Positions 1 through 34,014 of a stretch of 53,404 nucleotides of DNA are shown piece after piece (within the stretch, counting starts at the first letter, position 1; each line of letters begins with the position of its first letter). The stretch comes from Candidatus Heimdallarchaeota archaeon. Lineage in GTDB: Archaea > Asgardarchaeota > Heimdallarchaeia > Heimdallarchaeales > Heimdallarchaeaceae. The stretch lies in the NCBI GenBank assembly GCA_023270155.1, contig JAGLTB010000032.1, positions 1 to 53,404 of the forward strand. Direction: 5' to 3'. Below the pieces are notes generated by a model. It was not told where the DNA came from. It searched no databases and worked only from the letters and a program-made list of their open reading frames with translations. The position numbers and the translations under genes are program-made.

Positions 1-620
1 TTCTTTCAGAACTTTGTCTTGTTTAGCTAGAGAAGCAATGTGGTTAATTGGATTACGAGTCATAAATATGAATTTTGCATCAGGGAATAATTTCTTAATG
101 TACTCCATCCTTGATACATTGTAATTATTCTTTGTGATATAACGTGAACTTTTCTGATTTACTAACAATTTTTTGATTATTTCAATATAGTATTTCTCAA
201 AATCTGGATTTACTGTACTTTTATCCAAAATATCAGATGTTTTTTCTTTCTTTATATTATAGAAAAACCTTATCCAGTAACTTTCTTCAACTGCTTCAGG
301 ACTATCACGATTAACAAGTAATTTATCTTTTGAAGTCTTTCGACAGGTTTCTTAAAGATTGGGAGAATATCTGCTATTTTCTGAATCCAATGAGGGATAT
401 AGAGATTCACAAGGTGAAGATATTTATGATACGCAACATCAGGATGTTTTCCTAACATTTCTACAGTAATAGTTGTACCTGCTCGAGCTAAACCTAGAAC
501 AAAAATTGGTCTTTCAATTACCACTTGTCTTGTTTTCTTTCTCATCCTCTTTGATTCCCAATTGCTCAATTTCAATGTTAATCGGGGATGTTTATTGAAG
601 AATCTAGCAATATAGTACAT
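1..620 (-). pseudogene. PAPS-dependent sulfotransferase (Sulfotransfer_3-like), apparently frameshifted; C-terminus beyond window edge
   Basis: ORF 270..620 has the 5'-PSB-like motif PIFVLGLARAGTTITVEML; a different minus-strand frame over 1..~345 continues as DKLLVNRDSPEAVEESYWIRFFYNIKKEK...MEYIKKLFPDAKFIFMTRNPINHIASL (3'-PB-like motif). Confidence 0.75.
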
Positions 621-777
621 AGGTACAGGAAAGGTAAACTCCTTCGGTTAATCTTGTTTTTCTTTTGTTTTACTCATCAGTACTCTCATTTTTCTAAGGA
701 AGCTTATAAGACATTATATCGAATTAAAAATATGGATGCGTTTTTCAAATATAGAATAACAAAATTAAAAAACCTCT

Positions 778-2904
778 TTGTATAGAAAAATCGAGATGAA
801 AAAACGAACTAAGATTATATTTATTTCAATTGGAATATTTTTTCTTATAATTATTGCAGGAGGATTAACCTTCTTCCTCACTATTAAGTTCAAGTACAAA
901 CCTGTACCTCTAGATCTCGAAAATGCTCCGTCAGAGATTAAAGATATAAGAGAGGATCTTTATCCTAAATTGGTTAATTACTTATTCACTTGGGAGGATA
1001 TGGTTGATTTTGTTATTTTCTCTCAATATGTTGCAGACAACAGTCCTGTAGTACTTGAATTAGTAAAGGATTGGGATGATATAGTTTGGTTCAATGTAAG
1101 TGATGAGGATGATATGTGGTTCTACATTGAAGATGATTCTTTGACAGTAGAAATCGGACCTAATCCTCCTGAGAATTATGGAATTATAATTAACTTAAAC
1201 TTTGAAACTATGGTAAGAATCATCAAACAAGATGTTACTCCTCAAAAAGCATTTCAGAGGGGAACATTAACTTTTGAGGGAGATTTAAATGATGTTCTTA
1301 AGGTAAATCAGATTGTAGAAACTGCTGCAGCAACCATTATGGGTACGTATGCTCCCCCTATTGAAATTACAGATAATTTTGTTATTTCTGCAGATGAATC
1401 ATCATTGTACACAGAAAAAGGTCTGACTTTGATTCCTTACATTCAAGTTAATTTAAAAGAAGGTCAATATGGTGAGTCCCATGTATCTACTCCAAGTCAT
1501 GGAAAAGTCTTGATAGTAAATAATAGAGGTGAAATAGTATATGAACTTGAAGATTCGGCACATACAGTTCATAAATTTATAAATTCCAACACAGTAGCTA
1601 TGGGTGGTCAGGAGGGGTTTATGGAGTTATGGAACTATCAAACTGGAGAAGTTGAGACATTGGATGTGCCTGGTGGGCATCATGATTTTGATTACAATCC
1701 TACAACTGACACTTTTATGGTCTTAGAGTATGTTTTTTCTACAGAAACTTGGAATGGATATAATATTCTCTATGATAAATTGGGAGAGTATACAAGAGAT
1801 GGAGAATTATTATGGGAGTGGGATGGAAGAACAGAATTTCCATTTAATGCTACCCGACACACAAGTTTAGGAATGAATTTAACATTTAGGGGAGGTGCAG
1901 ATTGGATGCACGCAAATAGCTTTGTATGGGATAAACAAAATGAAGTAGTTTATCTGAATATACGAAATTTAGATACAATTGCTAAAATTAATTATGCTAC
2001 AAAAGATGTTCTCTGGGAAGCTGGAAGATCGTGTAATTTCACATTATATAATAAACAAAACAATCTTGTTGATTCAATATTTCACTCTCCACATAGTTTA
2101 GAAAGAATAGGAGAAGACAGATTCATTATTTTCGATAATGATTTGTACAACACGTCAAATCCTAATTCTATGACTTTAGAAGGTAGTCAAGGATTTTCTA
2201 GATTTCTAGAATTCGAAATAGATGAAGAGCAAGAAGAAATGCGGGAACTTTGGTCCTGGGAAATAACTAATCAAACCTATTACCTTCCAGAATCAGGTGG
2301 AGACGCAGATAGATTACCTGATGGAAATACGTTAGGAGTATTTGGGAATAAGGCTCTTGTCTTAAACGAAAAGAGTCCAACTATAATAACGGAAGTTACC
2401 CAAGATGGAGAAATCGTGTGGGAATTAACAATCAACGGAGTAAATATCACCTATTTCTGGGTTCATCTAGTAGAGCGATTTTATGAACAACCTTTAGTTC
2501 AACTTAATGAAGTGGATTTGGATTCAGAATCAAATGAATTGTATCTTAATCTAACAACCTGGAATGGTTACAAGATAGATTCCCTTACAGAAGGTTCACT
2601 AAAATTGAGAGCAGGTAAGAAAGTTATTTATGAGAAAGCGTTTAATTTTCTTCCAAAATGGCAACCAAATAACTTCGAAATATCCTTGACTGACGTTAGC
2701 TCAAATACCAATAAGATTTATCTCATTATAGAAAATCAGGATGGAATTCAGATAACAGTGGAAATCTTCAATACTGGGTGGACAACCAGGAATACTGTTC
2801 TAGTGATAATAATCCCTGTCATTGGTGGTGGATTGATAGCATCAGTTATTATACTAGAAAGAAAGAAGAAGCTATTTTCTCAGATATTTCTCAAGAAAAG
2901 CTAG
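778..2904 (+). CDS. Arylsulfotransferase (ASST)-like beta-propeller protein, N-terminal and C-terminal TM segments
   Basis: Propeller repeats with ASST-like His motifs GHHDFDYNP, MHANSFVWDKQNEVVYLNIRNLDTIAKI, SPHSLERIGEDRFIIFDND; GDADRLPDGNTL; terminal hydrophobic helices. The start is probably the internal ATG at MKKRTKIIF. Confidence 0.8.
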   Translation: MYRKIEMKKRTKIIFISIGIFFLIIIAGGLTFFLTIKFKYKPVPLDLENAPSEIKDIREDLYPKLVNYLFTWEDMVDFVIFSQYVADNSPVVLELVKDWDDIVWFNVSDEDDMWFYIEDDSLTVEIGPNPPENYGIIINLNFETMVRIIKQDVTPQKAFQRGTLTFEGDLNDVLKVNQIVETAAATIMGTYAPPIEITDNFVISADESSLYTEKGLTLIPYIQVNLKEGQYGESHVSTPSHGKVLIVNNRGEIVYELEDSAHTVHKFINSNTVAMGGQEGFMELWNYQTGEVETLDVPGGHHDFDYNPTTDTFMVLEYVFSTETWNGYNILYDKLGEYTRDGELLWEWDGRTEFPFNATRHTSLGMNLTFRGGADWMHANSFVWDKQNEVVYLNIRNLDTIAKINYATKDVLWEAGRSCNFTLYNKQNNLVDSIFHSPHSLERIGEDRFIIFDNDLYNTSNPNSMTLEGSQGFSRFLEFEIDEEQEEMRELWSWEITNQTYYLPESGGDADRLPDGNTLGVFGNKALVLNEKSPTIITEVTQDGEIVWELTINGVNITYFWVHLVERFYEQPLVQLNEVDLDSESNELYLNLTTWNGYKIDSLTEGSLKLRAGKKVIYEKAFNFLPKWQPNNFEISLTDVSSNTNKIYLIIENQDGIQITVEIFNTGWTTRNTVLVIIIPVIGGGLIASVIILERKKKLFSQIFLKKS

Positions 2905-2909
2905 ATTCT

Positions 2910-4847
2910 CTACTTAGATTCTAAAAATACAATCAATTTATCATATTCTTCTAGATCGAATAATTCTTGATGGAATTTAGTAATATCTAATTCTTTGTTA
3001 AAACGTTCTTCCCAAATTAACTCAGCAAATTCCTTTGCTCTCAAAGGATCGATTGGAAAATCTTCCCTATTCATAATACTTCCGAATTCAAGTTCTATAT
3101 CTTCGGGAATTAGGTATTTTGGCTTCTTTGATTTAAAATAATCAAATAGAGCTCGGAAGACCTCATCATCCAGTACGTTCTGAGCATAAACGAAGGCTCT
3201 TTCTATTTCGACTTTGCTACTTTTATCTACAACATATTGCATTTCTTCTTCTTTGGTTGCGGAATATACTTGAGACTCTACAAGTTTTTCTACTTTCTCT
3301 TTTTCCTCTTCAGCTCTTTGTCTGAATTTCCAATCCTCTGGAGCTATTTCTAAGGCTTTTGTATATCCTTCTATAGCTTCATAGAATTTCAGTTGTTTGA
3401 CCAGTAAAATAGCATAATTTAACCATAAATCAGGTTCTTCTCTATTTGTTTTAAGGCACTTAAGAAGTATAGAAGTTGCTTCGTCGTATTTCTCGTTTTT
3501 ACTCATAGCTGCAGCTAGATTAATGCCTGCGGTTACTCTAGCTGGATCACATTCAAGGGCTTTCTTATAATGTTCGATTGCCTTATCTATATCCTGTTTT
3601 TCATGGAAGTAAAGATCTGCTATCTTTGAATGAGCGCTAGCGTTTGATGGTTCTAATTTGATAACAGCTTCAAATTGCTCAATAGCTTCATCGGTTTGTT
3701 TCAATTTGGCATAAATCAGACCTAGGTTATTATGTGCGGGAAGATTTGTATCATCAAGTTGTAGGACTAAATTATAAATTGTTACAGTTTCATCAATCAA
3801 ATCGAGTTTATGGGCAAGCGTTCCAATAAAATTCAGAGAAGTAAGATTCTCTAATTCGCTAACTTCCTCTGGAAGCTTAGAAGCTATAAGAAAAATGATG
3901 TTTTTCAGATATTCAGTTTCATCATCAGAGAATTGGTATTCAACAAACATTTTCCAGTCTTCTTCATCTATCCCCATTAAGATATGAAGATGATCTGTAA
4001 GTTCATCAAGTACACCAGATATTAAAGCCTGTATCTCATTTCTTGCATCAACATCTTGTTTGTCTATTGAAGACAAGTTTTGGGTAAGCATTAATAGATT
4101 CTTCAAAGAGTTCTCTATTGGTGCATCTTTTAATTCGATTAACTTGAAATCCTCATCAACTTCTTCAACCTTTTCAATAGGAGCTTCTTCTACGATTTCT
4201 TCAATAATCTCTTCAACAGCTTCCTCAGGTTCTTCTATTTCCTCCATTATTTCTTCAGGTTCAGGTTCCGGAGGAGGTGTGGGAATAGCTTTAGGGATTG
4301 CAGGGATGCTCTGAGTTAATACTCCATTTACAGGATCTACACCCACTGTTTCTATTGATTTAAGTTCAGTTATTTCTCCTACAGAAAATTCTTCCAGGTC
4401 GAAGCTCATTTCAGTAGAAGTACCTAATAGGACTGGTACTGCGTCTTGTGCAGTAGGAATTTCGGTTATTGTTTCCTCAACTTTTTCAAAGTGTTCATCA
4501 GTTAATGGAGGTTCTTCCATATCTGGAGCAGAAATTTCTTCTACTGGACCAATTTTATTTAATAGTTTTTCAGCTTTCTTTCTAACGCCCATTCTCTCAG
4601 AAGTAGAAGCAGTTTCTATGATTGAAACCAGCTCTGGAGAAGTTGAACTTAAAATCGCGAGTATATCTAGGGCATTGATGATAACAAGATCATCTGGATC
4701 CTTTTGAATTAAATTAGTCAGTTTAGAAACTGCAAAAACAGCATGCTCTCCAGCATCTTTTAGCTTATGAAGAGCATCTAATCTCTCAATGAAGTGCTTT
4801 GAATTCAATAATTTGAGAATTTTCTTCTGCTCACCTTTAGGTAACAT
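2910..4847 (-). CDS. HEAT-like plus TPR repeat protein with Glu/Pro-rich linker
   Basis: N-terminal HEAT-like helices, acidic low-complexity linker (EEIMEEIEEPEEAVEEIIEEIVEEAP), consecutive TPR units (LPAHNNLGLIYAKLKQTDEAIEQFEAVIKLEPSN). Confidence 0.8.
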   Translation of the reverse strand: MLPKGEQKKILKLLNSKHFIERLDALHKLKDAGEHAVFAVSKLTNLIQKDPDDLVIINALDILAILSSTSPELVSIIETASTSERMGVRKKAEKLLNKIGPVEEISAPDMEEPPLTDEHFEKVEETITEIPTAQDAVPVLLGTSTEMSFDLEEFSVGEITELKSIETVGVDPVNGVLTQSIPAIPKAIPTPPPEPEPEEIMEEIEEPEEAVEEIIEEIVEEAPIEKVEEVDEDFKLIELKDAPIENSLKNLLMLTQNLSSIDKQDVDARNEIQALISGVLDELTDHLHILMGIDEEDWKMFVEYQFSDDETEYLKNIIFLIASKLPEEVSELENLTSLNFIGTLAHKLDLIDETVTIYNLVLQLDDTNLPAHNNLGLIYAKLKQTDEAIEQFEAVIKLEPSNASAHSKIADLYFHEKQDIDKAIEHYKKALECDPARVTAGINLAAAMSKNEKYDEATSILLKCLKTNREEPDLWLNYAILLVKQLKFYEAIEGYTKALEIAPEDWKFRQRAEEEKEKVEKLVESQVYSATKEEEMQYVVDKSSKVEIERAFVYAQNVLDDEVFRALFDYFKSKKPKYLIPEDIELEFGSIMNREDFPIDPLRAKEFAELIWEERFNKELDITKFHQELFDLEEYDKLIVFLESK

Positions 4848-4932
4848 ATTATCCCAGCATAAAATATATGTAAACTGTGTTTAAAAATAATTTCAAAGTG
4901 CTAGGAAGTACAAAAAATAAGGAAAAAAGAGG

Positions 4933-5877
4933 TTAGAGGTTGAGTTGAAGGTGATTCATGAAGAATTTACAGTGTTCTCGTAAGGTTGTACTAGGAATGT
5001 GAAGATAACGAGATATCTCTTCTTTAGTAATTAATGGTTGTCCAACATATCTTTTTCCTATCATGTTGGTTGCAAGAAATATAGCTGCAACACTGAAAGT
5101 TGAGGGTTTTCTTCCGTTTGCTTTGATCTCTGTAAGTTTGGTTGCTATTCTTTCGATAGATGTAAGCATCTTGTCCACATTAAGCTCATCTTGAGGATTG
5201 ATCTGACTTAACCTACTCCTGATTGTTTCATTATTTCTAAGTTTAGCCATCATTTTAGGTACAAACTCTTTAGCAGAGCTGGATCGATAGTTCATGTTAT
5301 TTTCGATGATATAATCTCGGACAGCTTTAGCAGATAGTTTACACTGATATGCTTTGAAAAGATTGACTATATCATTGATTGATGTAGCTTTACCTTGATT
5401 TTTCATATATCTAATTGTTAGAGCTGCTGCAATGAGGAAGATATTATTGACTTTTTTTCCTTTTCTTCTCTCATCATTATATTTCTTCTTTAATTCGAAC
5501 ATTATATCGTTACGTTGATTCTCGCTCAAACCTATCTGAGTCAATATTGCTAAAAGCCTTGATTTATTCTCAGATACGGCATCATATTGACTATTCTCTG
5601 TATTAAACAACCTTCTGTACTTATCTCTCTTCTCAGCAGTATATACATCATTTACTTTGAAATATGTTGTTTTACCTCTTCTGGATTCAGGAGAACCTAT
5701 TCTTTCTCCATCCTGTCCTCTTTCGAGGAAGTGACTTCCTTCTAGTATCCTGTCATATACAACCCCACAAGATTGGCATACAATATCTGACCTTGTAGTG
5801 GTGAAAGAAGACGACCCACAATCAATGCATACTTGGTCAATGACTATAATTTCTGACATCTTATATCCATCAAACAA
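4933..5877 (-). CDS. tfb: Transcription initiation factor B (TFB/TFIIB family), divergent paralog
   Basis: Zinc ribbon CIDCGSSSFTTTRSDIVCQSCGVVYD, ERIGSPESRRGKTTYF linker, two cyclin-like repeats (RKPSTFSVAAIFLATNMIG...ITKEEISRYLHIPSTTLREHCK). Confidence 0.88.
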   Translation of the reverse strand: MFDGYKMSEIIVIDQVCIDCGSSSFTTTRSDIVCQSCGVVYDRILEGSHFLERGQDGERIGSPESRRGKTTYFKVNDVYTAEKRDKYRRLFNTENSQYDAVSENKSRLLAILTQIGLSENQRNDIMFELKKKYNDERRKGKKVNNIFLIAAALTIRYMKNQGKATSINDIVNLFKAYQCKLSAKAVRDYIIENNMNYRSSSAKEFVPKMMAKLRNNETIRSRLSQINPQDELNVDKMLTSIERIATKLTEIKANGRKPSTFSVAAIFLATNMIGKRYVGQPLITKEEISRYLHIPSTTLREHCKFFMNHLQLNL

Positions 5878-6097
5878 TCTCGTTTAACCACTTATATACT
5901 TTAGACGGACACCTCATTGAAAGTGAACTGAGTGCATATCTTGTACGCTTGTTTCATCACTATTTTGTCGTCACTTCCAGCTTTTTTTTGAAAGTGAAAG
6001 TGTTTATTTAAAGGGTGAAAATATACGGAAAATACCCTGTAATATTGACCTTCTTTTCTTGATAACGAATATATAATACTATAGCTTAATTCTTTTA

Positions 6098-6739
6098 ATG
6101 GTACCTGATGATCAAAAATTTTCTTCATCTTTGTCTGGTTCTATTACATTTCAATCTTTCAAAGGGTATATTGAGTATTCAGGTATATTTCTAATACTAG
6201 CAAGCAGTTTTCTTCCTCTCCCTGGTTTTATAATCTCTTTGGGTGCTATTTTCCTTCTGATTTCTATTGTTCTTCTATATAGGGGAATTGGATTCTTGGA
6301 TTCTTTGATGGAATCTTCAAAAAGGATAATGATTATTTCGAGATTGTTTCTTATGTTTTGGGTTCTACTTTATGTTTCAACTCATATAATTCACATTATT
6401 TTCTTTTTTCTACCTTCATATTTATTCCTAATTTTATTCATAATACAATCAGCAGTGCAAATAGTTACTTTCATTTCTCTCTACATATTCTTTCAGCAAT
6501 TTAATAGAACACATTTAAGAAAAAATAAATCTTTCAACTGGATATTTATAATATACACAGTTTACGGAATAATTAGAATTGTTCCTTTTATCAATTATGA
6601 TTCATTTAGTAAAGTATTTTGGTACATAACTATAATCAATAGCATAATTTTAGTTTTGGTAGGAATAGTTCTAATCAGAACATCAGTTTTAATGGCAAGA
6701 AAATTCAGAGACACAAATCAAGAGTCTGAATTGATTTGA
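6098..6739 (+). CDS. Multi-pass membrane protein of unknown function
   Basis: Several hydrophobic helices over 213 aa; no recognised family motif. Confidence 0.65.
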   Translation: MVPDDQKFSSSLSGSITFQSFKGYIEYSGIFLILASSFLPLPGFIISLGAIFLLISIVLLYRGIGFLDSLMESSKRIMIISRLFLMFWVLLYVSTHIIHIIFFFLPSYLFLILFIIQSAVQIVTFISLYIFFQQFNRTHLRKNKSFNWIFIIYTVYGIIRIVPFINYDSFSKVFWYITIINSIILVLVGIVLIRTSVLMARKFRDTNQESELI

Positions 6740-6767
6740 AGACAACCTTTTTATTTTCTTAATCTTT

Positions 6768-8591
6768 TTGAAATTATTGAGAATCCAAGATCCTTTCCTC
6801 TTTCCCTTCAAGCGATTGAATGATTTTTTTTCTTCTTTGATTGAATCTAATAGTGCTTGGTTTTATCTTCTCAATAAGCTTCTTTCATTTTCACAAAATG
6901 ATTATTTGATCTCAACAATATTCGATTCATGTCCTTTTAGTCTTAAAGAGTATTCCGAAGAATCAGAGAAATTCTACAAAGAACAAGATTTTTCTCGTTT
7001 CTCTTTCTCCTTACAAGAGCATGATTCAGCTACTCATCTTACCCCATTTCATCTATCATTTTATTCAGAATCCAAAGCATCAGCAAAACAAAAAGGACAG
7101 TATTTTACTCCCTCATACATCTCAGATTTTATTGTAAAAAAGTCGTTGAAATATTTACTATCATCAAATTCGAACCTAACTGAAATGGTTTTTGGAGATA
7201 TTGCTTGCGGTTCAGGAAATTTGCTTATCCCTCTTCTTAATCAATTATACAATTTGTCACTAATTCAATTAAATACTGTAGAGTTCTCCAAATTCATCTC
7301 AACCAACATTTATGGGTTTGATACTGATCCTATTAGTTTGTGGATATCTAAGATGCGAATATTATTCTTTCTAACAGATAAAATCCCCGATTTTTCCCCC
7401 AGCGTGGTTAATTTGAATCTCTATCATTCTGACACACTTAAAGCTCTCAAAATTAACAGAAATAAGGAAGTTGATGAAGCATTCTTTGATCTCATAATAC
7501 TAAATCCTCCGTATATAAATTATGGACTTAGAAATGCACAAAAGTATGATAAGGAATTCAGAAATTTCCTTCGAAATCGCTTCTTTTCAGCGGAATACAA
7601 ATTAAGTCTTTATCCAATCTTTATGGAACGATCTATCGAGTTATTAAAAGACAATGGAATACTTGGAATTATTACTCCGGATTCCTATCTTTTAGGTAGA
7701 TTCTATTCAAAGATTCGTTCCTATCTTCTTCAAAATACTAACATATTGGATATCTCCTTATTGGGATTCGAACCTTTTACAGGAGTAACTTTGGGAAGAC
7801 CAACTATTACATTTCTGAAGAAGACAAATATTCCTCCTAAACTTCCTTTTCCTACTCGATGGATACCTTCCTTTTCCTCTTTTGTTGAAGAAAAATGGAA
7901 GGAATACTCTAATAATCAAGACGAATTCTCATCAAATTTCCACAATCGATTTCATTTGTTTTTTAATCAACAAGATGAGGAGTTTATTAAGGATTGGAAG
8001 AATAAATCCTCTAAGCTAATCCAAGATATTGTTTCAATACATACAGGGATTAGGAGTAAGATTGGGCAGAAGAACATAATCTCTAAAACCAAAAAAAGTC
8101 ATACTTGGAAAAAAGGGATTATTTCAAGCAGTCAAGTTAAACCTTTCTTTCTAGATAATCAAAATCATTGGATTAACGTCGAACCTTCTATTTTATGGGC
8201 AGGAGGGTTTAAGAAAGAAGTAAATGAGAATCCCAAACTATTAGTACGACAAACAGGGTATCAGATAGTTACGTGTGTTGATTTGGATGGATTTTACCAT
8301 TTGAATAATTGTCATTCAATATCTCCTAGAAGTAAGGAAACGAATCTGTTCTCTTTGGCAACTATTCTTAACTCTACTGAATTTAACAGACTTTATCATA
8401 TCTTGAGTATGGAAAAAGGAAGAGCGTTAGCACAAGTAGATATTGAATTTCTACTAAAATTACCAATTCCAACTATCATAAAAGAAGGTGAGAAGAAGCT
8501 TGAAGATTTCTACTGGATGAAAAATAAAACTGCTATGAAAGATGATTCTTTTGTAAGCTATTCACTTTTTGATTTAATTGAAAAAACTTAA
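6768..8591 (+). CDS. N6-adenine-specific DNA methyltransferase (Eco57I/type IIG-like), solitary
   Basis: Motif X KQKGQYFTPSYISDFIV, motif I FGDIACGSGNLLIPLL, motif IV LIILNPPYINYG, C-terminal TRD-like region. TTG start as given in the ORF track. Confidence 0.85.
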   Translation: MKLLRIQDPFLFPFKRLNDFFSSLIESNSAWFYLLNKLLSFSQNDYLISTIFDSCPFSLKEYSEESEKFYKEQDFSRFSFSLQEHDSATHLTPFHLSFYSESKASAKQKGQYFTPSYISDFIVKKSLKYLLSSNSNLTEMVFGDIACGSGNLLIPLLNQLYNLSLIQLNTVEFSKFISTNIYGFDTDPISLWISKMRILFFLTDKIPDFSPSVVNLNLYHSDTLKALKINRNKEVDEAFFDLIILNPPYINYGLRNAQKYDKEFRNFLRNRFFSAEYKLSLYPIFMERSIELLKDNGILGIITPDSYLLGRFYSKIRSYLLQNTNILDISLLGFEPFTGVTLGRPTITFLKKTNIPPKLPFPTRWIPSFSSFVEEKWKEYSNNQDEFSSNFHNRFHLFFNQQDEEFIKDWKNKSSKLIQDIVSIHTGIRSKIGQKNIISKTKKSHTWKKGIISSSQVKPFFLDNQNHWINVEPSILWAGGFKKEVNENPKLLVRQTGYQIVTCVDLDGFYHLNNCHSISPRSKETNLFSLATILNSTEFNRLYHILSMEKGRALAQVDIEFLLKLPIPTIIKEGEKKLEDFYWMKNKTAMKDDSFVSYSLFDLIEKT

Positions 8592-8641
8592 TTACTAACT
8601 AGTTATAAAGGGTGTGTAAAATATCAAATAAGGTCTGAATT

Positions 8642-11779: not shown

Positions 11780-11845
11780 TTCTAGTCTTAGACTGTTACA
11801 TTCAATATTTTTTAAATAACAGTTTTGGGTCAGAAATGATAACTA

Positions 11846-11911: not shown

Positions 11912-11976
11912 TTGAGAAAACTTAATTATGGATTAAGTATTTAGAGTGTGTAAAGGATTATATTGAGGTCTGAATA

Positions 11977-14900
11977 ATGTTAAAGAAATCAACCAAATAC
12001 TTACAGTTTCTATTGGTTGTTCTTCTCTTGCTAAATCTTTTTCTCTCTCCATTCACTATCTTGTCAGTTGATGAGGAAAACTGGGATGAAGTCAGAGATT
12101 CTTCTACATCAAACATTCAAAAAATAGCTGTTAATCCTTATGAGGATTTAGTAGAATTGGGTTACATTGAAAAAGACGATATGAATGTTATTACAACTTC
12201 TGATAGATTTGAAAGCTATAATCTCTTTATCGTTAATCGAATGAGCGGGGGATCATACGATATTGTACTAGTCATAGTTGATATGGATGGTAATGTGTTG
12301 AATGAGAAATATCTTGGAACTACAGTTGGTGTTACGTACGTTTCAGCTGAATTCATCAATGCTACTCATATTTTATATGGAGCTCCTGCAGGAGCTAGAC
12401 TTTGGAATTATTACACTGATGAGGATATTTCTTTAGAATTTAAAGGACATCATGACTATGAATATAATCCTCTACAAGGAACTTTTTTCACTCTCAATAG
12501 ACATATTGAAGTAATAGATGATATAGATTATTACTTTGATTATATTCAAGAATACAATTCAACTGGAAGTCTTATTTGGGAATTAAGTACATATACTTTC
12601 CAAACTATTGATATGTGGTGTACATGGGGGGATACTATTAATGGAAGACCCGATGTATCTCATTCCAACTCAGTTTTTTTTGATGCTGAGGAAGATATGA
12701 TTTATCTTCATTCAAGAAATACAAATACTTTCTACAAAATTGATCATAGTACTAGTACAGTGGTATGGGCCCTTGGAGAATATGGAGATTTTACTCTTTA
12801 TGATTTAAAAGGTAACGAAAAAAATAATTTGTTTTATCATGCTCACGCGCTTGAAAAAATTGATGATAATAAATTCATGTTATTCGATAATGATTATCAT
12901 AATCAAACTGATATCACTAGCAAAATTACCAGGCTTGTTGAGATAACAATAGATGAAAATACAATGACTGCTAATGAAACATGGACTTGGGAGGCTCCAA
13001 GTAATTATTATAGTGGTTACTGGGGAGATGCTGATCCTCTTCCAAATGGAAACACCTTTGGGATATTTGGAACATTTGAGCATGGAGGTTATCTTAGCAT
13101 AGGAGCTAGAATGATAGAAGTTAATCCAGCTGGTGATATTGTCTGGGAGATGAATTTTCCTATGACAAGCTATCGTTATGGGATATATAGAGCTGAAAAA
13201 TTTGGCTTTTCTCCATTTATAAATGCTTCTTCTGAACTTTTTGTAGGTTCCGGAACAGAAGTTTCAGCTACTTTTCAGACCTGGTATAATTTTCGATCAA
13301 AAACAAAAATAACAGGTTCATATAATTTGTATTTGGATGAATCTTTAATCGACACAGGACCTGTGCAATTCGATGAATTTTGGCGCACAAAGAACCTCAC
13401 TTTTGATTTAGGTATTTTAGCTGATGGAATACACAATCTAACGATTGCCATTGCTGATGAAGCAGGTCATTATTCCATAAAAACCATGCTTATAAAAATC
13501 GGTCCATTCTTTATAGAAAGAACCGGTCCAACAGAAATGGAAATAGGGGAAGAAAATTCTATCATCAGTTGGTTTGGTTACTCTGCAAGTCCCTTGGAGT
13601 TCAATTTAACTATCAATGGAACAGATGAATTCACTGATAATTGGAGTGGCGAGATTGTTGAATATGATTTAAATGAATTAACAATAGGAATACATAATTT
13701 TACGGTTCAGTTTTTCAATGGAACTGATTTAGTATATAATAATACATTTTGGGTTACAATCTTCCCAAGTTCTCCTCCTATTTTCATCAATTCTCCAAGT
13801 AATCAAACTATTACTTGGGGTGACGCTTTAATGCTCTCTTGGAATGTTACGGATTCCAGTCTTTACAGAATAGATCTCTATTTTAATGATATAAGAGACA
13901 GTTACATTGAGTTCTCAGCTTCTCCACCATATTATGTTTATGATTATGTTTTTCCACTTGTCGATGAAGGAGATTATAATGTAACTTTAGTAGTTACGGA
14001 TAGAACCTTAGGGTCTACGTCAAACACAACGTGGATAGAAGTAACTCCACCGAGTCCTCCGATTATTTCTCAGGCTCCGATGAATGATGTAGTTTCTTGG
14101 GGACAAAAAAACGCTAGTTTCATATGGGAAGTTCATGGAGAAAGTGATTCTTCATGGTTATTACTAAAGAATGAAAGTATTTTTGCAAGTGGGATTCTTA
14201 GTAATAAGATAATTGAGATTTCTGTTGATGATTGGTATGATAGTGAGTGGTACCCAGGAAAATATAATTTAACATTGTACGTAGAAGATAATTATGGAAA
14301 TTCTACAAGTAGCACAGTTCTCATCAAAGTAGTAATTGCAGGAGATCCTTATGTTGATTCTTTTATTCAAAGTGCTTCCCTTTACTATTTTCAAGGGGAA
14401 AATGCAATAGGGGCACCTGATGGTGCAATGGCTCTAATCTTCCAAGATTATGGTAGTGGGTATATTACTTTAGATATGGGGAGAAACGAAGAGATTACAG
14501 ATGGGGATGAGTTTGACTTTACTATAATTTCAACAGCTGGTCAATATTCTTGCTGGGTTGGAAATAATCTAGAAGAATCATTCATTTACCTTGGGTCAGG
14601 TGAAGGAAATTCTTCATTTGATTTGAGTACTAAAAATCTAGATTCTGCTAGATATGTGAGAATCGAATACATTTCAGGAGGAATGGCTTATATAGACGCA
14701 GTAGTAGCATTGAATTATCTTATTCTTGAATCTGATACGGAAAATCCTGAAATCCTCGGTCCAGATGATTTTACAATATATAACAATATAACTTATTTCA
14801 CTATTTCATGGCAGCTTTACGATTTAACTCCTTTCAATTACTCAATAATTATAAATGAAGAAATCTACGATTCAGATCTATGGAATGGTTCTGATATCAC

Positions 14901-15105
14901 TCTTACATACTACTGGGATGAAATTGGATCATATGTAGTTGAACTTGTTCTTTATGATATCTTTGGGAATCATGCTTCAGATACAGTTAATGTTCAAGTT
15001 GAAGATCAAGATGGAACAAATAAAACGAATAGACCGTATTTATATTTCTTATTTCTGCTCTCGTTAACAGCAATTCCTCTATTGTTCCTTATTAGGAAAA
15101 GATGA
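11977..15105 (+). CDS. Exported ASST-like sulfotransferase with Ig-like and discoidin-like modules and C-terminal TM anchor (tandem copy 2)
   Basis: Collinear paralog of 8642..11779 over the full length; same His motifs (GHHDYEYNP, SHSNSVFFDAEEDMIYLHSRNTNTFYKID, YHAHALEKIDDNKFMLFDND). Confidence 0.8.
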   Translation: MLKKSTKYLQFLLVVLLLLNLFLSPFTILSVDEENWDEVRDSSTSNIQKIAVNPYEDLVELGYIEKDDMNVITTSDRFESYNLFIVNRMSGGSYDIVLVIVDMDGNVLNEKYLGTTVGVTYVSAEFINATHILYGAPAGARLWNYYTDEDISLEFKGHHDYEYNPLQGTFFTLNRHIEVIDDIDYYFDYIQEYNSTGSLIWELSTYTFQTIDMWCTWGDTINGRPDVSHSNSVFFDAEEDMIYLHSRNTNTFYKIDHSTSTVVWALGEYGDFTLYDLKGNEKNNLFYHAHALEKIDDNKFMLFDNDYHNQTDITSKITRLVEITIDENTMTANETWTWEAPSNYYSGYWGDADPLPNGNTFGIFGTFEHGGYLSIGARMIEVNPAGDIVWEMNFPMTSYRYGIYRAEKFGFSPFINASSELFVGSGTEVSATFQTWYNFRSKTKITGSYNLYLDESLIDTGPVQFDEFWRTKNLTFDLGILADGIHNLTIAIADEAGHYSIKTMLIKIGPFFIERTGPTEMEIGEENSIISWFGYSASPLEFNLTINGTDEFTDNWSGEIVEYDLNELTIGIHNFTVQFFNGTDLVYNNTFWVTIFPSSPPIFINSPSNQTITWGDALMLSWNVTDSSLYRIDLYFNDIRDSYIEFSASPPYYVYDYVFPLVDEGDYNVTLVVTDRTLGSTSNTTWIEVTPPSPPIISQAPMNDVVSWGQKNASFIWEVHGESDSSWLLLKNESIFASGILSNKIIEISVDDWYDSEWYPGKYNLTLYVEDNYGNSTSSTVLIKVVIAGDPYVDSFIQSASLYYFQGENAIGAPDGAMALIFQDYGSGYITLDMGRNEEITDGDEFDFTIISTAGQYSCWVGNNLEESFIYLGSGEGNSSFDLSTKNLDSARYVRIEYISGGMAYIDAVVALNYLILESDTENPEILGPDDFTIYNNITYFTISWQLYDLTPFNYSIIINEEIYDSDLWNGSDITLTYYWDEIGSYVVELVLYDIFGNHASDTVNVQVEDQDGTNKTNRPYLYFLFLLSLTAIPLLFLIRKR

Positions 15106-15140
15106 GTATAGTGTTAATCTTATACTGTTACATCCAATAT

Positions 15141-15150
15141 CTTTTAAATA
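15141..15150 (+). promoter_or_regulatory. Putative TATA box of cysQ-sat/cysC operon
   Basis: cttttaaata about 28-37 nt upstream of the GTG start at 15178, consistent with a near-leaderless archaeal transcript; the same element is conserved at ~11808-11818 in the relic copy. Confidence 0.5.
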
Positions 15151-15177
15151 TTAATTTAGGTTTAAAAGTGATAACTA

Positions 15178-15978
15178 GTGACAATTGACGAGAACTACGA
15201 ATTTAAAGAGGAATTTGACATTCTTTGTCAAAGTGCAAAGAAAGCCAGTGCTGAGCTATTAAAAATCGTCGAGAAAGGATTTGATAAATCTTTTAAAGCA
15301 AATGACGACCCAGTGACTACTGGTGATTTTACTGTCAATAATATACTTCAAGAAGAATTTTCCAAGCATTTTCCTGAGATTGGCTGGTTATCTGAAGAAA
15401 CTAGAGATAATGCGAACAGACTAGACAAAGAATTTGTCTGGATTGTAGATCCAATAGATGGTACAAAAGAGTTCGTAATGGGTATCCCCGAATATTCAAT
15501 CTCTGTTGCATTAGTTAGAAATGGTTCTCCAATTATGGGGTTGATTCTCAATCCTCTAAGAAATGAGATTTATACTGCAATTAAAGGAAAAGGAGCTTTC
15601 TTAAATGAGAAGCCTATTCAAGTAAAAGAAACTCTTGATGAAAAACCCACAATTGTAGCAAGTAGATCTGAAATAAAAAGAGGAGAATTTGAGCCATTTG
15701 AAAATGTTTCGAAAGTTGTTCCAACTGGTTCTATTGCATATAAATTAGCACTTGTTGCTGCGGGAAGAGCTGACGGTACTTTCAGTTTAGGTCCAAAAAA
15801 TGAATGGGACATAGCTGCTGGGTGTTTGATTGTTGAAGAAGCTGGAGGAAAGGTTAGTGACAAACATGGACATGGTTTTAAATTCAATCAGAAAGACACT
15901 CTTGTAAATTCCATAGTTGGAACATCGAAAATTGCATCTGAGCAAATATTTAGTATGATTCAAAAAGAGATGAATTAA
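15178..15978 (+). CDS. cysQ: 3'(2'),5'-bisphosphate nucleotidase, CysQ-type PAP phosphatase (inositol monophosphatase superfamily)
   Basis: DDPVTTGDFTVN, GWLSEETRDN, WIVDPIDGTKEFVMG (DGTKEF typical of CysQ), NEWDIAAGCLIVEEAGG; GTG start. Confidence 0.88.
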   Translation: MTIDENYEFKEEFDILCQSAKKASAELLKIVEKGFDKSFKANDDPVTTGDFTVNNILQEEFSKHFPEIGWLSEETRDNANRLDKEFVWIVDPIDGTKEFVMGIPEYSISVALVRNGSPIMGLILNPLRNEIYTAIKGKGAFLNEKPIQVKETLDEKPTIVASRSEIKRGEFEPFENVSKVVPTGSIAYKLALVAAGRADGTFSLGPKNEWDIAAGCLIVEEAGGKVSDKHGHGFKFNQKDTLVNSIVGTSKIASEQIFSMIQKEMN

Positions 15979-15979
15979 A

Positions 15980-17713
15980 ATGAATGAAAGAAATGAGCTT
16001 ATCCCACCCCACGGTGGAAAAATAATTGATTTAATAGTTAAAGATGAAAAAATCAGATTTGATCTTGTTGAGAAAGCTAAAACTCTTACAAAAATAAATC
16101 TTGATGAGAGAGGTTTAGCAGATTTGGAATGTATAGCAACTGGTATTTATTCTCCTTTAAAAGGTTTCATAGGAGAAGAAGATTATATAAGTGTATTAAA
16201 TGAGATGAGGTTAGCTGATGGAACAGTTTGGCCAGTTCCTATAACTTTAGGAGTTAGTGAAGAAATTGCTTCAAAATTAAAGGTTGGAGATGAAGTTTCA
16301 CTAATGTGGGATGATGTTCATATTGGTTTGATGAAACTATCCAGTATCTATAAACCTGATAAAAAAGAAGAAGCAATCAAAATTTACAAAACAAAGGATA
16401 TTACACATCCAGGAGTAGATGCTCTCTATAAAACTGAAGATGTTTATCTTGGTGGTGAAATTCAATTAATTGAAGAATTACCTCACAAAGAATTCAACGA
16501 ATATAGATTTACCCCCAAACATACTAGAGCAATCTTTGAAGAGAAAGGATGGAAAACTGTTGTTGCATTTCAAACAAGGAATCCTATCCATAGAGCTCAT
16601 GAACATCTTCAAAAAATAGCTATTGAATATGTCGATGGATTGTTCATAAATCCACTTGTCGGTGCTACAAAGAAAGATGATATTTCAGCTTCAGTACGAA
16701 TGGAATCTTACAATATTATCTTGAACAGCTACTATCCAAGAGAGAGTTATTTTTTAGGTGTCTACCCAGCAAATATGAGATATGCAGGACCCCGTGAAGC
16801 AATTTTACATGCAATCTCCAGACAAAATTATGGTTGTTCTCATTTCATTGTAGGCAGAGATCATGCAGGTGTAGGAGATTACTATGGAACATATGAAGCT
16901 CAAGAAATTTTCGAGCAATTTACAAAAGACGAGTTAATGATTACTCCAATGAAATTTGAGCATGCATTTTATTGCAGAATTTGTGAACAGATGGTTACTA
17001 AACGAACCTGTCCTCACGGTAAAGATGCTCATGTTTTCTTATCTGGAACAAAAGTTAGAGATATGCTGAATAATGGAGAAATGCTCCCTCGAGAATTCAC
17101 TAGACCTGAAGTAGCAATGATTCTGATTGATTCTGTGAATAATAAAAGAGGATACAAGCTTGAACAAAAGGGTGTATCTATGCTCTTTACAGGTCTCTCT
17201 GGTTCAGGAAAAACTACAATTTCCAAAGCTTTAGCTGAAGAACTGAAAAAACGTGGTTATAAAGTAGAAAGATTAGATTCAGATATTGTCAGACAAAACC
17301 TAAGTAAAGGACTAGGATTTAGCAAAGAAGATCGTGATGAAAACATCCGAAGAGTAGGTTTTGTTTGTCATCTTATGAGTAGAAACGGAGTCATTGCTAT
17401 GATGGCAAATATTGCTCCCTACATATCTGTTCGTGAGGAAATCAGACAAAGGATTGGTGATTTCATGGAAATCTATGTAAAATGTCCTGTAGAAGTCTGT
17501 GAAACACGAGATCTCAAAGGTCTTTATGCCAAAGCTCGTGCTGGTGAAATTACTGGTTTCACTGGAGTAGATGATCCTTACGAAGAACCTCAAGCTCCTG
17601 AAGTTGTTTGTGAAACTGATAAAGAAACCATAGAGGAAAGCGTTCAGAAAGTTATAGATAAAATGGAAGAGCTTGGTTACATTGAACCATTCAAGATAAA
17701 AGAACCTATCTAG
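15980..17713 (+). CDS. sat-cysC: Bifunctional ATP sulfurylase / APS kinase (PAPS synthase)
   Basis: Sulfurylase motifs QTRNPIHRAHEHL and VGRDHAGVGDYYGTYEAQ; kinase P-loop LFTGLSGSGKTTISKAL and LDSDIVRQNLSKGLGFSKEDRDENIRRVG. Begins immediately after the cysQ stop. Confidence 0.95.
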   Translation: MNERNELIPPHGGKIIDLIVKDEKIRFDLVEKAKTLTKINLDERGLADLECIATGIYSPLKGFIGEEDYISVLNEMRLADGTVWPVPITLGVSEEIASKLKVGDEVSLMWDDVHIGLMKLSSIYKPDKKEEAIKIYKTKDITHPGVDALYKTEDVYLGGEIQLIEELPHKEFNEYRFTPKHTRAIFEEKGWKTVVAFQTRNPIHRAHEHLQKIAIEYVDGLFINPLVGATKKDDISASVRMESYNIILNSYYPRESYFLGVYPANMRYAGPREAILHAISRQNYGCSHFIVGRDHAGVGDYYGTYEAQEIFEQFTKDELMITPMKFEHAFYCRICEQMVTKRTCPHGKDAHVFLSGTKVRDMLNNGEMLPREFTRPEVAMILIDSVNNKRGYKLEQKGVSMLFTGLSGSGKTTISKALAEELKKRGYKVERLDSDIVRQNLSKGLGFSKEDRDENIRRVGFVCHLMSRNGVIAMMANIAPYISVREEIRQRIGDFMEIYVKCPVEVCETRDLKGLYAKARAGEITGFTGVDDPYEEPQAPEVVCETDKETIEESVQKVIDKMEELGYIEPFKIKEPI

Positions 17714-17740
17714 TTTTTTTCTATTCTTTTATTCTATTTT
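17714..17740 (+). terminator. Oligo-T terminator downstream of sat-cysC
   Basis: ttttttt ctattcttttattctattttt directly after the sat-cysC stop, between convergent genes; archaeal termination uses oligo-T tracts. Confidence 0.4.
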
Positions 17741-18169
17741 TTATTGTTCTTCATCGAAGAAATATAATTGCCATCCTATTCCAAATTTATCCTTGAAGCT
17801 TGCATAATAAGCTCCCGAGGACTTCTTATCTAGTTCCATAAAAATCTTACAATCCAATTCTTTTGCCTTATTGTAAGTTTTTTCTATTTGATCTTTCGAA
17901 TCAAGATCAAGTAAAATATCAACTTTTCCGCTTCCTTCTTCCAGTGTTCCACCTAAACCATCAGATAAATAAATAGTATTTCCATAAATTTCAATTGTTG
18001 CATGCATGGTAGAATTTTCGTAATTAAAATCATCAGCAAAACCAAGTTGTTTGCACATCTCTTCAGTAAAAGGTTCATGACTTTTTAGTTCTGCATCAAA
18101 TAATTTCTCGTAAAGTGCTATAGTTTTTTTACCATTTTTTACCATTAAATAAGGCATAATTTTTACCAT
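17741..18169 (-). CDS. VOC/PhnB-like (glyoxalase superfamily) protein
   Basis: PYLMVKNGKKTIALYEKLFDAEL...HATIEIYGNTIYLSDGL...SFKDKFGIGWQLYF typical of PhnB-like VOC proteins. Confidence 0.8.
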   Translation of the reverse strand: MVKIMPYLMVKNGKKTIALYEKLFDAELKSHEPFTEEMCKQLGFADDFNYENSTMHATIEIYGNTIYLSDGLGGTLEEGSGKVDILLDLDSKDQIEKTYNKAKELDCKIFMELDKKSSGAYYASFKDKFGIGWQLYFFDEEQ

Positions 18170-18233
18170 TTAATCACCTTTTCAAAATTCTTTTACCTAT
18201 TTGATATATTTAAAACCGATGAATTACCAAAAA

Positions 18234-19076
18234 TTAAGGTGGTAGGAAAAAGGATACCAAAATAAAAATTAATACTAATATGAGAGAGATTCCAACAATT
18301 AAGGAAACTTGTTTTCCTTTCAATTTTCTTTTTAGCCATGTTCCGATACCTGCTCCTACAGGAAGGGAAAGAGCTAAAGTCAAAAACAGAAACCTATCTA
18401 TATGACCTTCAACTATATGTGTAACTCCACCAACCATTGCTTTTATCAAAACTATTAATAATGATGTTCCTGCAGCCATTAAAGGAGGTATACCAAAACC
18501 TAATATAAGTAATGGAGTGTGCACCCACCCCCCACTTAAACCAATTAAACCAGTTAATACTCCACTTAATAAACCAACTAAAGCAATAACTGGTATACTC
18601 ACCTTATATGTGAAATTTTCTTGTTTTAGAGTAATATTCGGTTTAAGTGATGCTATTATTTTCATTAAGGATGGTTTTTTTTCTTCTTCAATTCTAATTT
18701 CATCAGTCAACGCATGTTTAATCATTCTATAACTTAGCAATGCTGCTATTACGCAGATAACTATTAGCAATGCTAGTTCAGGCACTCTATCTGAAAATAA
18801 CGCACCTATCAAAGCACCTATTGAAGCAGGAATTGCGAAAATAATTGCTAGTTTGTAATCGATTTCTTTTCTTCTCCAAGCGCCTAGGACTCCCACAATT
18901 GAGAACACAATTACCGCTAATAAGGTAGAGCCTACAATAATGCTAAATTCATAGTCGAATAGTACAAATATGAAAGGTACCAAAAATACACCTCCTCCAA
19001 AGCCTGCGATAACACTAACGATTCCAACAACTAAAGCAACAATTGCGATAATAGCAAGAATTGTTGGAGTACTCAC
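18234..19076 (-). CDS. TauE/SafE family sulfite/sulfate-type anion permease
   Basis: Eight-helix-like hydrophobic pattern with GFGGGVFLVPFIFVLF and GLSGGWVHTPLLILGFGIPPLMAAGTSLL repeats. Confidence 0.88.
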   Translation of the reverse strand: MSTPTILAIIAIVALVVGIVSVIAGFGGGVFLVPFIFVLFDYEFSIIVGSTLLAVIVFSIVGVLGAWRRKEIDYKLAIIFAIPASIGALIGALFSDRVPELALLIVICVIAALLSYRMIKHALTDEIRIEEEKKPSLMKIIASLKPNITLKQENFTYKVSIPVIALVGLLSGVLTGLIGLSGGWVHTPLLILGFGIPPLMAAGTSLLIVLIKAMVGGVTHIVEGHIDRFLFLTLALSLPVGAGIGTWLKRKLKGKQVSLIVGISLILVLIFILVSFFLPP

Positions 19077-19183
19077 ATTCTTGAGTATATCTTACTGTTT
19101 TTAATTGTTTCTTTGAAGAAAATCCTACCTCTCCTTTAAACAGATAAATTAATAACTTCTAATTTAATGTTGAATATGTCCAG

Positions 19184-20632
19184 ATGACAAAGTCAGCTAA
19201 ATCCCTTAAATCTCTGTATACACAGTTTATACAATTTGAGGTGGATAACCATTTATTTGCAAAAAGAATAAATAGTATTTTCTTTTGGGAAAGAATAAGA
19301 TTCACTGTCTTTATGAAACTTTTTCTAACACTTGTAAACGTTAAGGAGGTTGACAAAGAAAGAATTAAAGATGAGACTTCTAGAATAGTAAATTACTTCT
19401 TGAAATTCCGAAATTATCTATTATCAATTTTCAGATTTAGAAAAAATCCATTTTTAGCAAAACAACACGATCTTGTCCTTTTTAGTAATTCTAGAAGAAA
19501 GAAACAAGATGATGGTTATTGGTGGGATATTTATACTGATCATTTAGAAAAGAAACTTGGATATTCCACAATTCTGCTGGAAAAGGATTTATTTTTTAAA
19601 TATCGTAAACCTGTAAAAACTGAAAAAATAGTTTATCATGCTTATCTTGATTTACTAGTTGATTTAAGGAAATATCTACGACTTTCAAGGATGAAATTAA
19701 CTGATGAAGATATAATATATCTCCAAAACTTATCTCAAAAAATAAAATCAAAGTTTACTCTAGAAATAGATTTGATTCATATCGTATATCATAATCTAAC
19801 TAAGCGAAAAAGAGAACTGCCTTTATATCAGAAGCTACTTAGAAAAACAAAGCCTAAAGCTGCGATTGTTGTTTGTAGTTATGGGAAAGAAAATTTTATT
19901 GAAGCCTGCAAGTTAAATGATATTCCAGTTATAGAACTTCAACATGGTGTAATCACAAAATATCATGTAGGATATTCATATGAAAAAGAGACTGCAAAAA
20001 AGCACTATTTTCCTGATTTTCTCTTTACTTTTGGTAACTATTGGAAAGAAACTGTTAACTATCCAATACAGAAAGAAAAAATCCTTAATGTTGGATATCC
20101 TGAGTTAGAAATAAGAAAACAAAACTATCAAAATGCAAAGAAAAAGAAACAGATACTCTTTATTTCTCAAAAGACAATAGGATCGCTGCTTTCAAGATTT
20201 GCAGTAAAACTCAGTCAAAAAGAAGATCTAGATTATAGAATAATCTACAAACTTCACCCATTCGAAGTTTTATCTTGGAAAGAAAATTATCCATGGCTAA
20301 AACAGAGTAAAATTGAGGTTGTTGACCATCAAAGAGTGAATCTTTATCAACTATTCGCTGAATCAGAAGTCCTTGTTGGAGTTTACTCAACAGCAATATT
20401 TGAAGGATTGAGTTTTGGTTTAAGTACATTCCTTGTTGATATAGTTGGCATAGATTATATGGAGGATTTAATCCAAACCGGAATTGCAACAAAGATAAGT
20501 AAACCTGAAGAACTAGCCAGTTTTCTTGCAAGAAGGAAAATAAAGCATTTTGATACAGATTTATTCTTTGTGAATGATTCAGTGAAAAATATCAAAGAAG
20601 AACTGGATAGGATTATAAGCAAAATAAAATAA
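19184..20632 (+). CDS. GT-B-like capsule/teichoic/sialyl-type glycosyltransferase
   Basis: CSYGKENFIEACKLNDIPVIELQHGVITKYHVGYSY...KILNVGYPE...SEVLVGVYSTAIFEGLSFGLSTFLVD resembles capsule-synthesis GT-B C-terminal regions. Confidence 0.6.
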   Translation: MTKSAKSLKSLYTQFIQFEVDNHLFAKRINSIFFWERIRFTVFMKLFLTLVNVKEVDKERIKDETSRIVNYFLKFRNYLLSIFRFRKNPFLAKQHDLVLFSNSRRKKQDDGYWWDIYTDHLEKKLGYSTILLEKDLFFKYRKPVKTEKIVYHAYLDLLVDLRKYLRLSRMKLTDEDIIYLQNLSQKIKSKFTLEIDLIHIVYHNLTKRKRELPLYQKLLRKTKPKAAIVVCSYGKENFIEACKLNDIPVIELQHGVITKYHVGYSYEKETAKKHYFPDFLFTFGNYWKETVNYPIQKEKILNVGYPELEIRKQNYQNAKKKKQILFISQKTIGSLLSRFAVKLSQKEDLDYRIIYKLHPFEVLSWKENYPWLKQSKIEVVDHQRVNLYQLFAESEVLVGVYSTAIFEGLSFGLSTFLVDIVGIDYMEDLIQTGIATKISKPEELASFLARRKIKHFDTDLFFVNDSVKNIKEELDRIISKIK

Positions 20633-20738
20633 TGAACAATGAAGAATGAACGTAAAAATCAAACAGGTACGTATTATAAATAGTTTGAATCATACTTTTT
20701 GTTCCTGTTCAGTTTAGTCATTAATTTACGATCTTTTC

Positions 20739-21560
20739 TTATTTTTCCCAAATTTTTGTATTCAGACCTGTAAGATCTCTTAATTTCTCATTGTGGTTAA
20801 CAAAATATTCAGTTAATTCAGCTCTTAATTCTTTGGATAATTTTGCATATCCCGGCTCTTTACCTTTAAATGCGATAAATTGTACTCCTCTATAGACTAA
20901 TGAGTTTTCACCAAAAACCTTTCTTGTTCTCCTCAAGAGTTTAGGTATTCTAGGAATTAATGTAATATTCCTAATTTCATCCTTATATTGGTAGTTGTTG
21001 AATGAAACTTCCAGGAATTTGAACAGTTCACTCATAGTTTCTGTTGGATTTTTCACGAAATCTTCGAAAAGAAGGAGGTGCATATTCTTTAAATCAAAAA
21101 AATTCAAATATCTTTCTACTTGTTCGATATAAATGCTTCTTTTCAGATACCCCTTAAAAACATCTTGAGCAATTCGTTTAGATTCGAGTTTGATAGCTTC
21201 TTCAAAGCTAAGATTTTCGCTTCCTGATTTTATGGCATGCAAATAATTTGAATATGCACGATCGACAGGATTTCTGAAGATCCAGACTAATTTAATATCG
21301 GGATTGTATTCAAAAATCCTTTGAGGAACTTTTTTTGAATAGCTGTAGGTAGGAGTCTTTTCCCCAATTATACTATCCACACTACAATTCTTGAAGATGT
21401 TTTCATACCATTTAACACCTTTACTAAAATTCTCTTCATTATCAAAGAAATGAATCTCTTCTAATGGAATAAAGACTTGAGGATTATTTCTAAGCTGAAA
21501 GGCTAGACTTGAAGTACCTGCTTTCATCGCTCCAACTATTATGAAATCTAATTTTCTCAT
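20739..21560 (-). CDS. PAPS-dependent sulfotransferase (Sulfotransfer_1, heparan-sulfate sulfotransferase-like)
   Basis: 5'-PSB DFIIVGAMKAGTSSLAFQL; PQVFIPLEEIHFFDN; GEKTPTYSYSKKVPQRI; 3'-PB LVWIFRNPVDRAYSNYLH. Confidence 0.93.
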   Translation of the reverse strand: MRKLDFIIVGAMKAGTSSLAFQLRNNPQVFIPLEEIHFFDNEENFSKGVKWYENIFKNCSVDSIIGEKTPTYSYSKKVPQRIFEYNPDIKLVWIFRNPVDRAYSNYLHAIKSGSENLSFEEAIKLESKRIAQDVFKGYLKRSIYIEQVERYLNFFDLKNMHLLLFEDFVKNPTETMSELFKFLEVSFNNYQYKDEIRNITLIPRIPKLLRRTRKVFGENSLVYRGVQFIAFKGKEPGYAKLSKELRAELTEYFVNHNEKLRDLTGLNTKIWEK

Positions 21561-33947: not shown

Positions 33948-34014
33948 TTTTCAGGACCTTTAGTTCTTGAGGGAAAGACTAAAATGTAATAATCATCATT
34001 TTCTTTTTGTTAAG

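Follow-up and report, generated by a model that had tools for sequence, protein, structure and literature searches.

The window analysed here is the whole of a 53,404-nt contig (JAGLTB010000032.1, C32 in our numbering) of Candidatus Heimdallarchaeota archaeon, assembly GCA_023270155.1. It contains a locus for the synthesis and use of 3'-phosphoadenosine 5'-phosphosulfate (PAPS) next to genes for surface glycans (Table 1). The source genome (G000) is a metagenome-assembled genome (MAG) of 2.58 Mb in 270 contigs and is 82% complete. The comparison sets were 36 genomes of its order and 228 genomes of its phylum, where order, family and phylum are the database's own grouping. These genomes are MAGs, often with short contigs, and the linkage counts given below are to be read with this in mind. 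Gene identities were taken from Pfam profile searches, and the CysQ-type protein was also compared with NCBIfam equivalogs.

The PAPS and glycan genes of the window

An initial annotation of the first 21,560 nt had named a fused ATP sulfurylase-adenosine 5'-phosphosulfate (APS) kinase (Sat-CysC), a CysQ-type phosphatase, a TauE/SafE permease, arylsulfate sulfotransferases (ASSTs) and PAPS sulfotransferases, and we found Pfam matches for all of them. Two ASST genes, the phosphatase gene and the Sat-CysC gene follow one another on the plus strand, with intergenic gaps of 197, 72 and 1 bp. The best solved relative of the window Sat-CysC is the bifunctional SAT/APS kinase 2gks (3e-134); the match is near full-length, as for a complete PAPS synthase, and the fused architecture is common to both. 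Sat-CysC is present in 19 of the 36 order genomes, and the sequences closest to the window copy are in Heimdallarchaeota MAGs. Our tree includes several bacterial entries that are long or span only Sat; in it, a supported branch sets the Heimdall sequences apart, and they are nested among bacterial ones. Besides this separate placement, they differ from bacterial fused Sat-CysC in that their genomes lack sulfite reductase. The topology makes a single acquisition likely and does not fix its direction.

The phosphatase belongs to the IMPase family and has CysQ as its top equivalog model, yet it scores under the cut-off of that model (157.9 vs 228.8). We retain the name because of the protein family and the place of the gene beside Sat-CysC in 13 relatives from two genera, where it lies directly upstream. 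Its product likely removes 3'-phosphoadenosine 5'-phosphate (PAP), judging from family and context. The TauE gene recurs beside Sat or Sat-CysC in relatives, also in family f28, and an Eco57I-type methylase, TauE and glycan genes are often found near CysQ/Sat-CysC.

The two PAPS-type sulfotransferases that had been annotated fared differently. The carbohydrate-type gene is intact, and the closest solved structures to its product are a bacterial sulfotransferase (3rnl, 2e-28) and the heparan sulfate 3-O-sulfotransferase (HS3ST) HS3ST5 (3bd9, 2.9e-27). It matches both of these carbohydrate enzymes but, unlike heparan sulfate 3-O-sulfotransferase, it lies within a nonulosonate/pyruvylated surface-glycan locus; kin at 73–77% stand beside glycan genes in three genomes (G022, G020, G005). 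The second gene, at the left edge of the window, is only a fragment, both frameshifted and truncated. Its frame breaks at ~ 340, beyond which the sequence continues in a different frame as far as the contig end, with both pieces aligning to consecutive parts of intact homologues at 54–65% identity. Either the assembly is wrong here or the gene is broken. By sequence it is related to the sulfotransferases that pair with SCP2-ASST, as described below.

The locus had been taken to end at 21,560, which was not borne out: glycan genes carry on to ~ 33.9 kb as a nonulosonate/surface-glycan block of which the HS3ST-like sulfotransferase is the first gene. The NeuA-PseG fusion in this block is conserved in relatives. 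Archaea are known to carry sulfated surface glycans, and the sulfated N-glycans of Halobacterium salinarum and Thermoplasma acidophilum offer a precedent (PMC11625862). No ASST relay is mentioned there, and the glycan genes of the window differ in being of the nonulosonate type, with their sulfation only predicted.

Table 1. Genes of the PAPS, ASST and surface-glycan locus in the window
Feature	Position	Strand	Evidence
PAPS sulfotransferase (Sulfotransfer_3), frameshifted, cut by contig end	1..620	-	PF13469 6e-7 at 270-620
SCP2-ASST, membrane-anchored, predicted exported	778..2904	+	PF05935 6e-24; N-terminal SCP2 PF02036 6e-8
Long ASST: signal-like start, propeller, Ig-like and C-terminal domains, C-terminal transmembrane segment	8642..11779	+	PF05935 1e-21
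Second long ASST	11977..15105	+	PF05935 2e-21; sister of first in tree
CysQ-like phosphatase	15178..15978	+	Inositol_P PF00459 5e-57; 1 bp upstream of Sat-CysC
Fused ATP sulfurylase-APS kinase (PAPS synthase, Sat-CysC)	15980..17713	+	PF01747 2e-96, PF01583 3e-59
TauE/SafE anion permease, candidate sulfate/sulfite transporter	18234..19076	-	PF01925 8e-42
Conserved protein, capsule-type glycan gene by context only	19184..20632	+	no Pfam; beside Sat-CysC/TauE in relatives
Carbohydrate-type PAPS sulfotransferase (HS3ST-like)	20739..21560	-	Sulfotransfer_1 PF00685 8e-21
Wzx-type polysaccharide flippase	22083..23642	-	PF01943
Polysaccharide pyruvyl transferase	23720..24808	-	PF04230 1e-21
NeuA-like CMP-sugar synthetase (cytidylyltransferase) fused to PseG-like domain	26809..28506	+	PF02348 1e-23, PF04101 8e-8
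NeuB-type nonulosonate synthase	28511..29575	+	PF03102 7e-78, PF08666
GT4-type glycosyltransferase	30595..31848	-	PF13439 2e-11
GT87-type glycosyltransferase	32688..33947	-	PF09594 1e-7

Sulfation or assimilation of sulfate

PAPS made at this locus is, in our judgement, very probably used for sulfation instead of assimilation. That PAPS here is for transfer had been proposed from the lack of cysH and cysI in the window, and a genome-wide check extended this observation, as neither was found over cut-off in the source genome. The genome has no PF01507 match over cut-off, and the one hit under it is a GMP synthase. Searches for sulfite reductase (PF01077) gave no match in the 36 order genomes and, over cut-off, none in the 228 phylum genomes, while 11 of 14 controls scored over cut-off; the sole match in the phylum set fell under it and carries internal stop codons. 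Sulfotransferases, by contrast, track Sat-CysC. Those of PF13469 were found in 19/19 order genomes with Sat-CysC versus 4/17 without (Fisher p=1e-6), and within the genus in 15/15 versus 2/6 (p=0.0025), although the Fisher and Poisson tests used throughout ignore shared ancestry and MAG gaps. PF00685 sulfotransferases are likewise found in genomes with Sat-CysC. In family f28, where Sat and CysC are separate genes, Sat, CysC and Sulfotransfer_3 genes are adjacent on one strand in two genomes (G201, G209), which also backs the use of PAPS for transfer.

If Sat-CysC instead served assimilation, it would feed PAPS to a reductase and the product to sulfite reductase, for cysteine. PF01507 proteins do occur in 34 of the 36 order genomes (30 over cut-off), and true CysH-type reductases with a GECGIH end, found solely in G005 and G014 among the PF01507 proteins examined, count against a sulfation-only reading. 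Their contigs differ from those of Sat-CysC, no sulfite reductase accompanies them, and no reductase was found near Sat-CysC. Most genus relatives have a strong PF01507 protein; in the two copies examined it is a PUA-PAPS_reduct-ferredoxin protein, for which the nearest models are PRK13795 'hypothetical protein' and the CysH models lie far under cut-off. Proteins of like size and score are also found in seven genomes that all lack Sat-CysC (G009, G010, G011, G014, G018, G023, G001), and we rejected this common protein as a PAPS reductase on both grounds. With no CysH over cut-off in the 82% complete source genome and no sulfite reductase over cut-off in either comparison set, assimilatory sulfate reduction was rejected too; this explanation is largely refuted already, and we regard it as very improbable. 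A review infers that all Asgard archaea are putatively able to assimilate sulfate by reducing it (PMC6646929). Our findings argue against that published inference, which these genomes do not support: sulfite reductase over cut-off was found in none of them, and their common PF01507 protein scores far under the CysH cut-offs.

The two CysH-type reductases (L079 3160-3897 in G005 and L080 9734-10471 in G014) have CC...CxxC cysteines in addition to the GECGIH end and are possibly of the APS type with an Fe-S cluster, as predicted from these motifs.

ASST proteins and their pairing with a sulfotransferase clade

The three ASST-like proteins named in the window held up well, with propellers scoring 77–85 bits against a curated PF05935 cut-off of 24.2 and with intact catalytic residues. 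Counterparts of His356, Asn358, Arg374 and His436 of Escherichia coli AssT (3ELQ) are present in all three, the roles of these residues being taken from published work (PMC13426309). Across 20 aligned Asgard ASSTs, the histidines at 301/302, 378 and 439 are invariant, with 378 corresponding to AssT His356 and 439 to His436, and the Asn358 and Arg374 counterparts are each kept in 19. The HH pair at 301-302 is the likely counterpart of His252, while that of Thr501 could not be placed in the alignment. Their predicted activity is aryl-sulfate-dependent, PAPS-independent transfer. The resemblance to E. coli AssT is otherwise distant and partial: the Asgard forms are anchored by transmembrane segments, carry SCP2 or long C-terminal domains, and are in some cases paired with PAPS sulfotransferases. 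In SCP2-ASST, hydrophobic stretches lie at residues 13 and 674, and the first long ASST has a transmembrane segment at residue 1022. Because all three window copies are hydrophobic at both ends, we infer that the propeller is external. The two long ASSTs are 75% identical over the kept alignment columns.

The SCP2 domain of the window protein was assigned by Pfam only, as a near full-length match of 33.3 bits against a cut-off of 21.3; the match is repeated in L046, L188 and L211 and falls under cut-off in L186. It suggests a lipophilic ligand. Our tree sets the SCP2-ASSTs, which come from families f1, f7 and f28, apart by a branch with support of 100. We also observed three stand-alone proteins (L030 5976-6845, L046 4330-4944, L204 2716-3594) that resemble part of the long ASST or each other; they have no Pfam match and lie beside SCP2-ASST or glycan genes. 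Two tandem arrays of five ~ 530-aa ASSTs each (L090 10103-18237, L091 4794-13018) lie near a DsbH-type thioredoxin protein.

Checking relatives for co-occurrence, as had been suggested, gave a mixed result: the link between sulfotransferases and Sat-CysC described above stood, as did a pairing of SCP2-ASST with sulfotransferases in three families, while the link between ASST and Sat-CysC was weaker. Over the order, ASSTs were found in 16/19 genomes with Sat-CysC versus 5/17 without. ASSTs near PAPS-synthesis genes numbered 4 against 0.45 expected at random in f1, and 3 against 0.16 in f28. An ASST stands between the Eco57I and CysQ genes in G000, G006, G002 and G015. SCP2-ASST in particular is divergent from or near one clade of sulfotransferases in the window, on a second contig of the source genome (C102), in G019 and G007, in G058 of f7 and in G213 and G219 of f28; at four f1 loci the two genes are divergent, with 70–157 bp between start codons. 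The sulfotransferases linked to SCP2-ASST or, in f28, to Sat/CysC fall together on one side of a branch supported at 100/100; by sequence this clade also holds L195, with no linked partner on its own contig. Intact copies of the paired sulfotransferase lie at L046 8263-9441 and L030 2521-3678.

The f28 loci bring these genes closest together. G213 has SCP2-ASST, Sulfotransfer_3, TauE, Sat, CysC and an IMPase in ~ 7 kb, and G219 has a similar set, so that Sat and CysC are here grouped with the sulfotransferase clade paired with SCP2-ASST. In G218, an APS kinase, a phosphodiesterase, Sat, two TauE genes and SCP2-ASST were found in ~ 9 kb.

A candidate sulfate relay and its alternatives

The source genome offers a further clue on contig C102, where a type III polyketide synthase (PKS) stands with a Sulfotransfer_3 of the paired clade, SCP2-ASST and another ASST. 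The nearest solved relatives of this PKS are 7cb3 and PKS18, and its Cys/His/Asn triad is present. The same three enzyme types serve in caprazamycin biosynthesis in Streptomyces, in which the type III PKS is Cpz6. There, phenolic sulfate esters made by the PAPS sulfotransferase Cpz8 act as donors for the PAPS-independent ASST Cpz4 (PMC4257720), which prefers sugar hydroxyls (PMC13426309). The Heimdall case differs in its archaeal host, in an ASST that is fused to SCP2 and membrane-anchored, and in its grouping with PAPS-synthesis genes in f28. No antibiotic cluster was seen, and the window itself has no type III PKS. Type III PKSs occur in 8 of the 36 genomes, including 5/5 genus genomes with SCP2-ASST versus 3/16 others (p=0.003).

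We propose that the locus is a PAPS system for sulfation with two outlets, one of them a relay, and put the probability of this whole explanation at roughly 0.55. Sat-CysC would make PAPS from sulfate, the CysQ-like enzyme would clear PAP, and TauE would move the anion. At the first outlet, the HS3ST-like enzyme would sulfate a sugar of the nonulosonate-containing surface glycan made by the adjoining genes. At the second, a Sulfotransfer_3 enzyme would use PAPS in the cytosol to form a sulfated phenolic or pyrone lipid, which would then get to the outer face. The externally anchored SCP2-ASST would bind this lipid through its SCP2 domain and take the sulfuryl group onto the active-site His before passing it to a surface glycan or protein, and the long ASSTs may be further surface transferases using a common donor pool. 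We infer the substrates throughout, as well as the donor being a lipid, its export and the direction in which sulfate is passed on. Some relay of sulfate to the cell surface seems to us a little short of an even chance. Its specific form, a trans-membrane relay in Asgard archaea in which the cytosolic enzyme loads a phenolic or pyrone lipid and SCP2-ASST unloads it onto glycans, is offered more tentatively.

A two-stage relay had been raised in the initial annotation; the pairing in three families, the PKS beside the pair and the caprazamycin precedent give it circumstantial backing. A number of observations weigh against the proposal. The window's own Sulfotransfer_3 is broken. Within the genus, ASST presence does not differ significantly with Sat-CysC (15/15 genomes with it versus 4/6 without, p=0.07), and of the 16 f1 genomes with both, just 4 have an ASST no more than 10 kb from Sat-CysC, short contigs being common. 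G010 and G011 have ASST without a PAPS sulfotransferase. Conversely, G003, a single contig of a third genus of the family, has Sat-CysC and sulfotransferases without ASST, and in it CysQ is not directly beside Sat-CysC. Many 530-aa ASSTs were found in tandem arrays away from PAPS genes, a family expansion beyond what a relay needs. The SCP2 fold was not confirmed, as a structure prediction with five sequences reached a mean pLDDT of 48 and was left unused. The type III PKS adjoins ASST in G000 only; in the seven other genomes it lies elsewhere and belongs to a separate subfamily, whose members are 78–96% alike mutually and ~ 60% alike to the C102 enzyme. For this reason the PKS link is no more than suggestive, and with one adjacency among 8 genomes expected by chance at p ~ 0.12 we rejected it as general proof. 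Shared ancestry among the species also makes the Fisher and Poisson results look stronger than they are.

A rival explanation has two unrelated uses of sulfate side by side, in which the sulfotransferases act on the glycan directly and the ASSTs on aryl sulfates from the environment or a partner, without any relay. The 4/6 genus genomes with ASST and no Sat-CysC, the distant tandem arrays and the study of bacterial ASSTs with exogenous phenolic sulfates (PMC13426309) all point this way. Against it stand the fact that SCP2-ASST pairs specifically with a single sulfotransferase clade across three families and the grouping with Sat/CysC in f28, and the SCP2 domain hints at a lipophilic ligand. 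We consider two separate uses a serious contender that nonetheless falls clearly below even odds. The ASST-like proteins could also be structural or adhesive surface propellers without catalysis, as the Ig-like and other C-terminal domains of the long forms, the transmembrane anchors and the many copies per genome might suggest. A purely structural role is not expected, because the active-site residues are conserved across divergent copies, and we hold it to be highly unlikely.

For most ASSTs, neither the natural substrates nor the physiological role is known (PMC13426309), and the conserved pairing of ASST with a PAPS sulfotransferase offers a definite, testable hypothesis for the donor. If the relay is true, sulfation outside the cell needs no extracellular PAPS. 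The findings also point to sulfated surface molecules in Asgard archaea, a group proposed as the closest archaeal kin of eukaryotes. A literature search, with subscription papers outside its scope, found nothing joining Asgard and arylsulfotransferase, and within the same scope the papers on Asgard and sulfotransferase looked off-topic judging by title.

Other genes in the window were also recorded. Eco57I-type N6-adenine methylases with TaqI-like specificity domains lie at 6768-8591 and 44145-46379, the former conserved beside CysQ/Sat-CysC in many relatives. A TFIIB-like protein (4933-5877) has a weak Zn-ribbon Pfam match alone, and its synteny with a tetratricopeptide repeat (TPR) protein is kept in relatives. 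Also conserved in relatives are a major facilitator superfamily transporter fused to a PhoU_div (DUF47) domain (33967-35985) and three consecutive TPR proteins (37940-44215), of which the first ends in a weak longin-type match.

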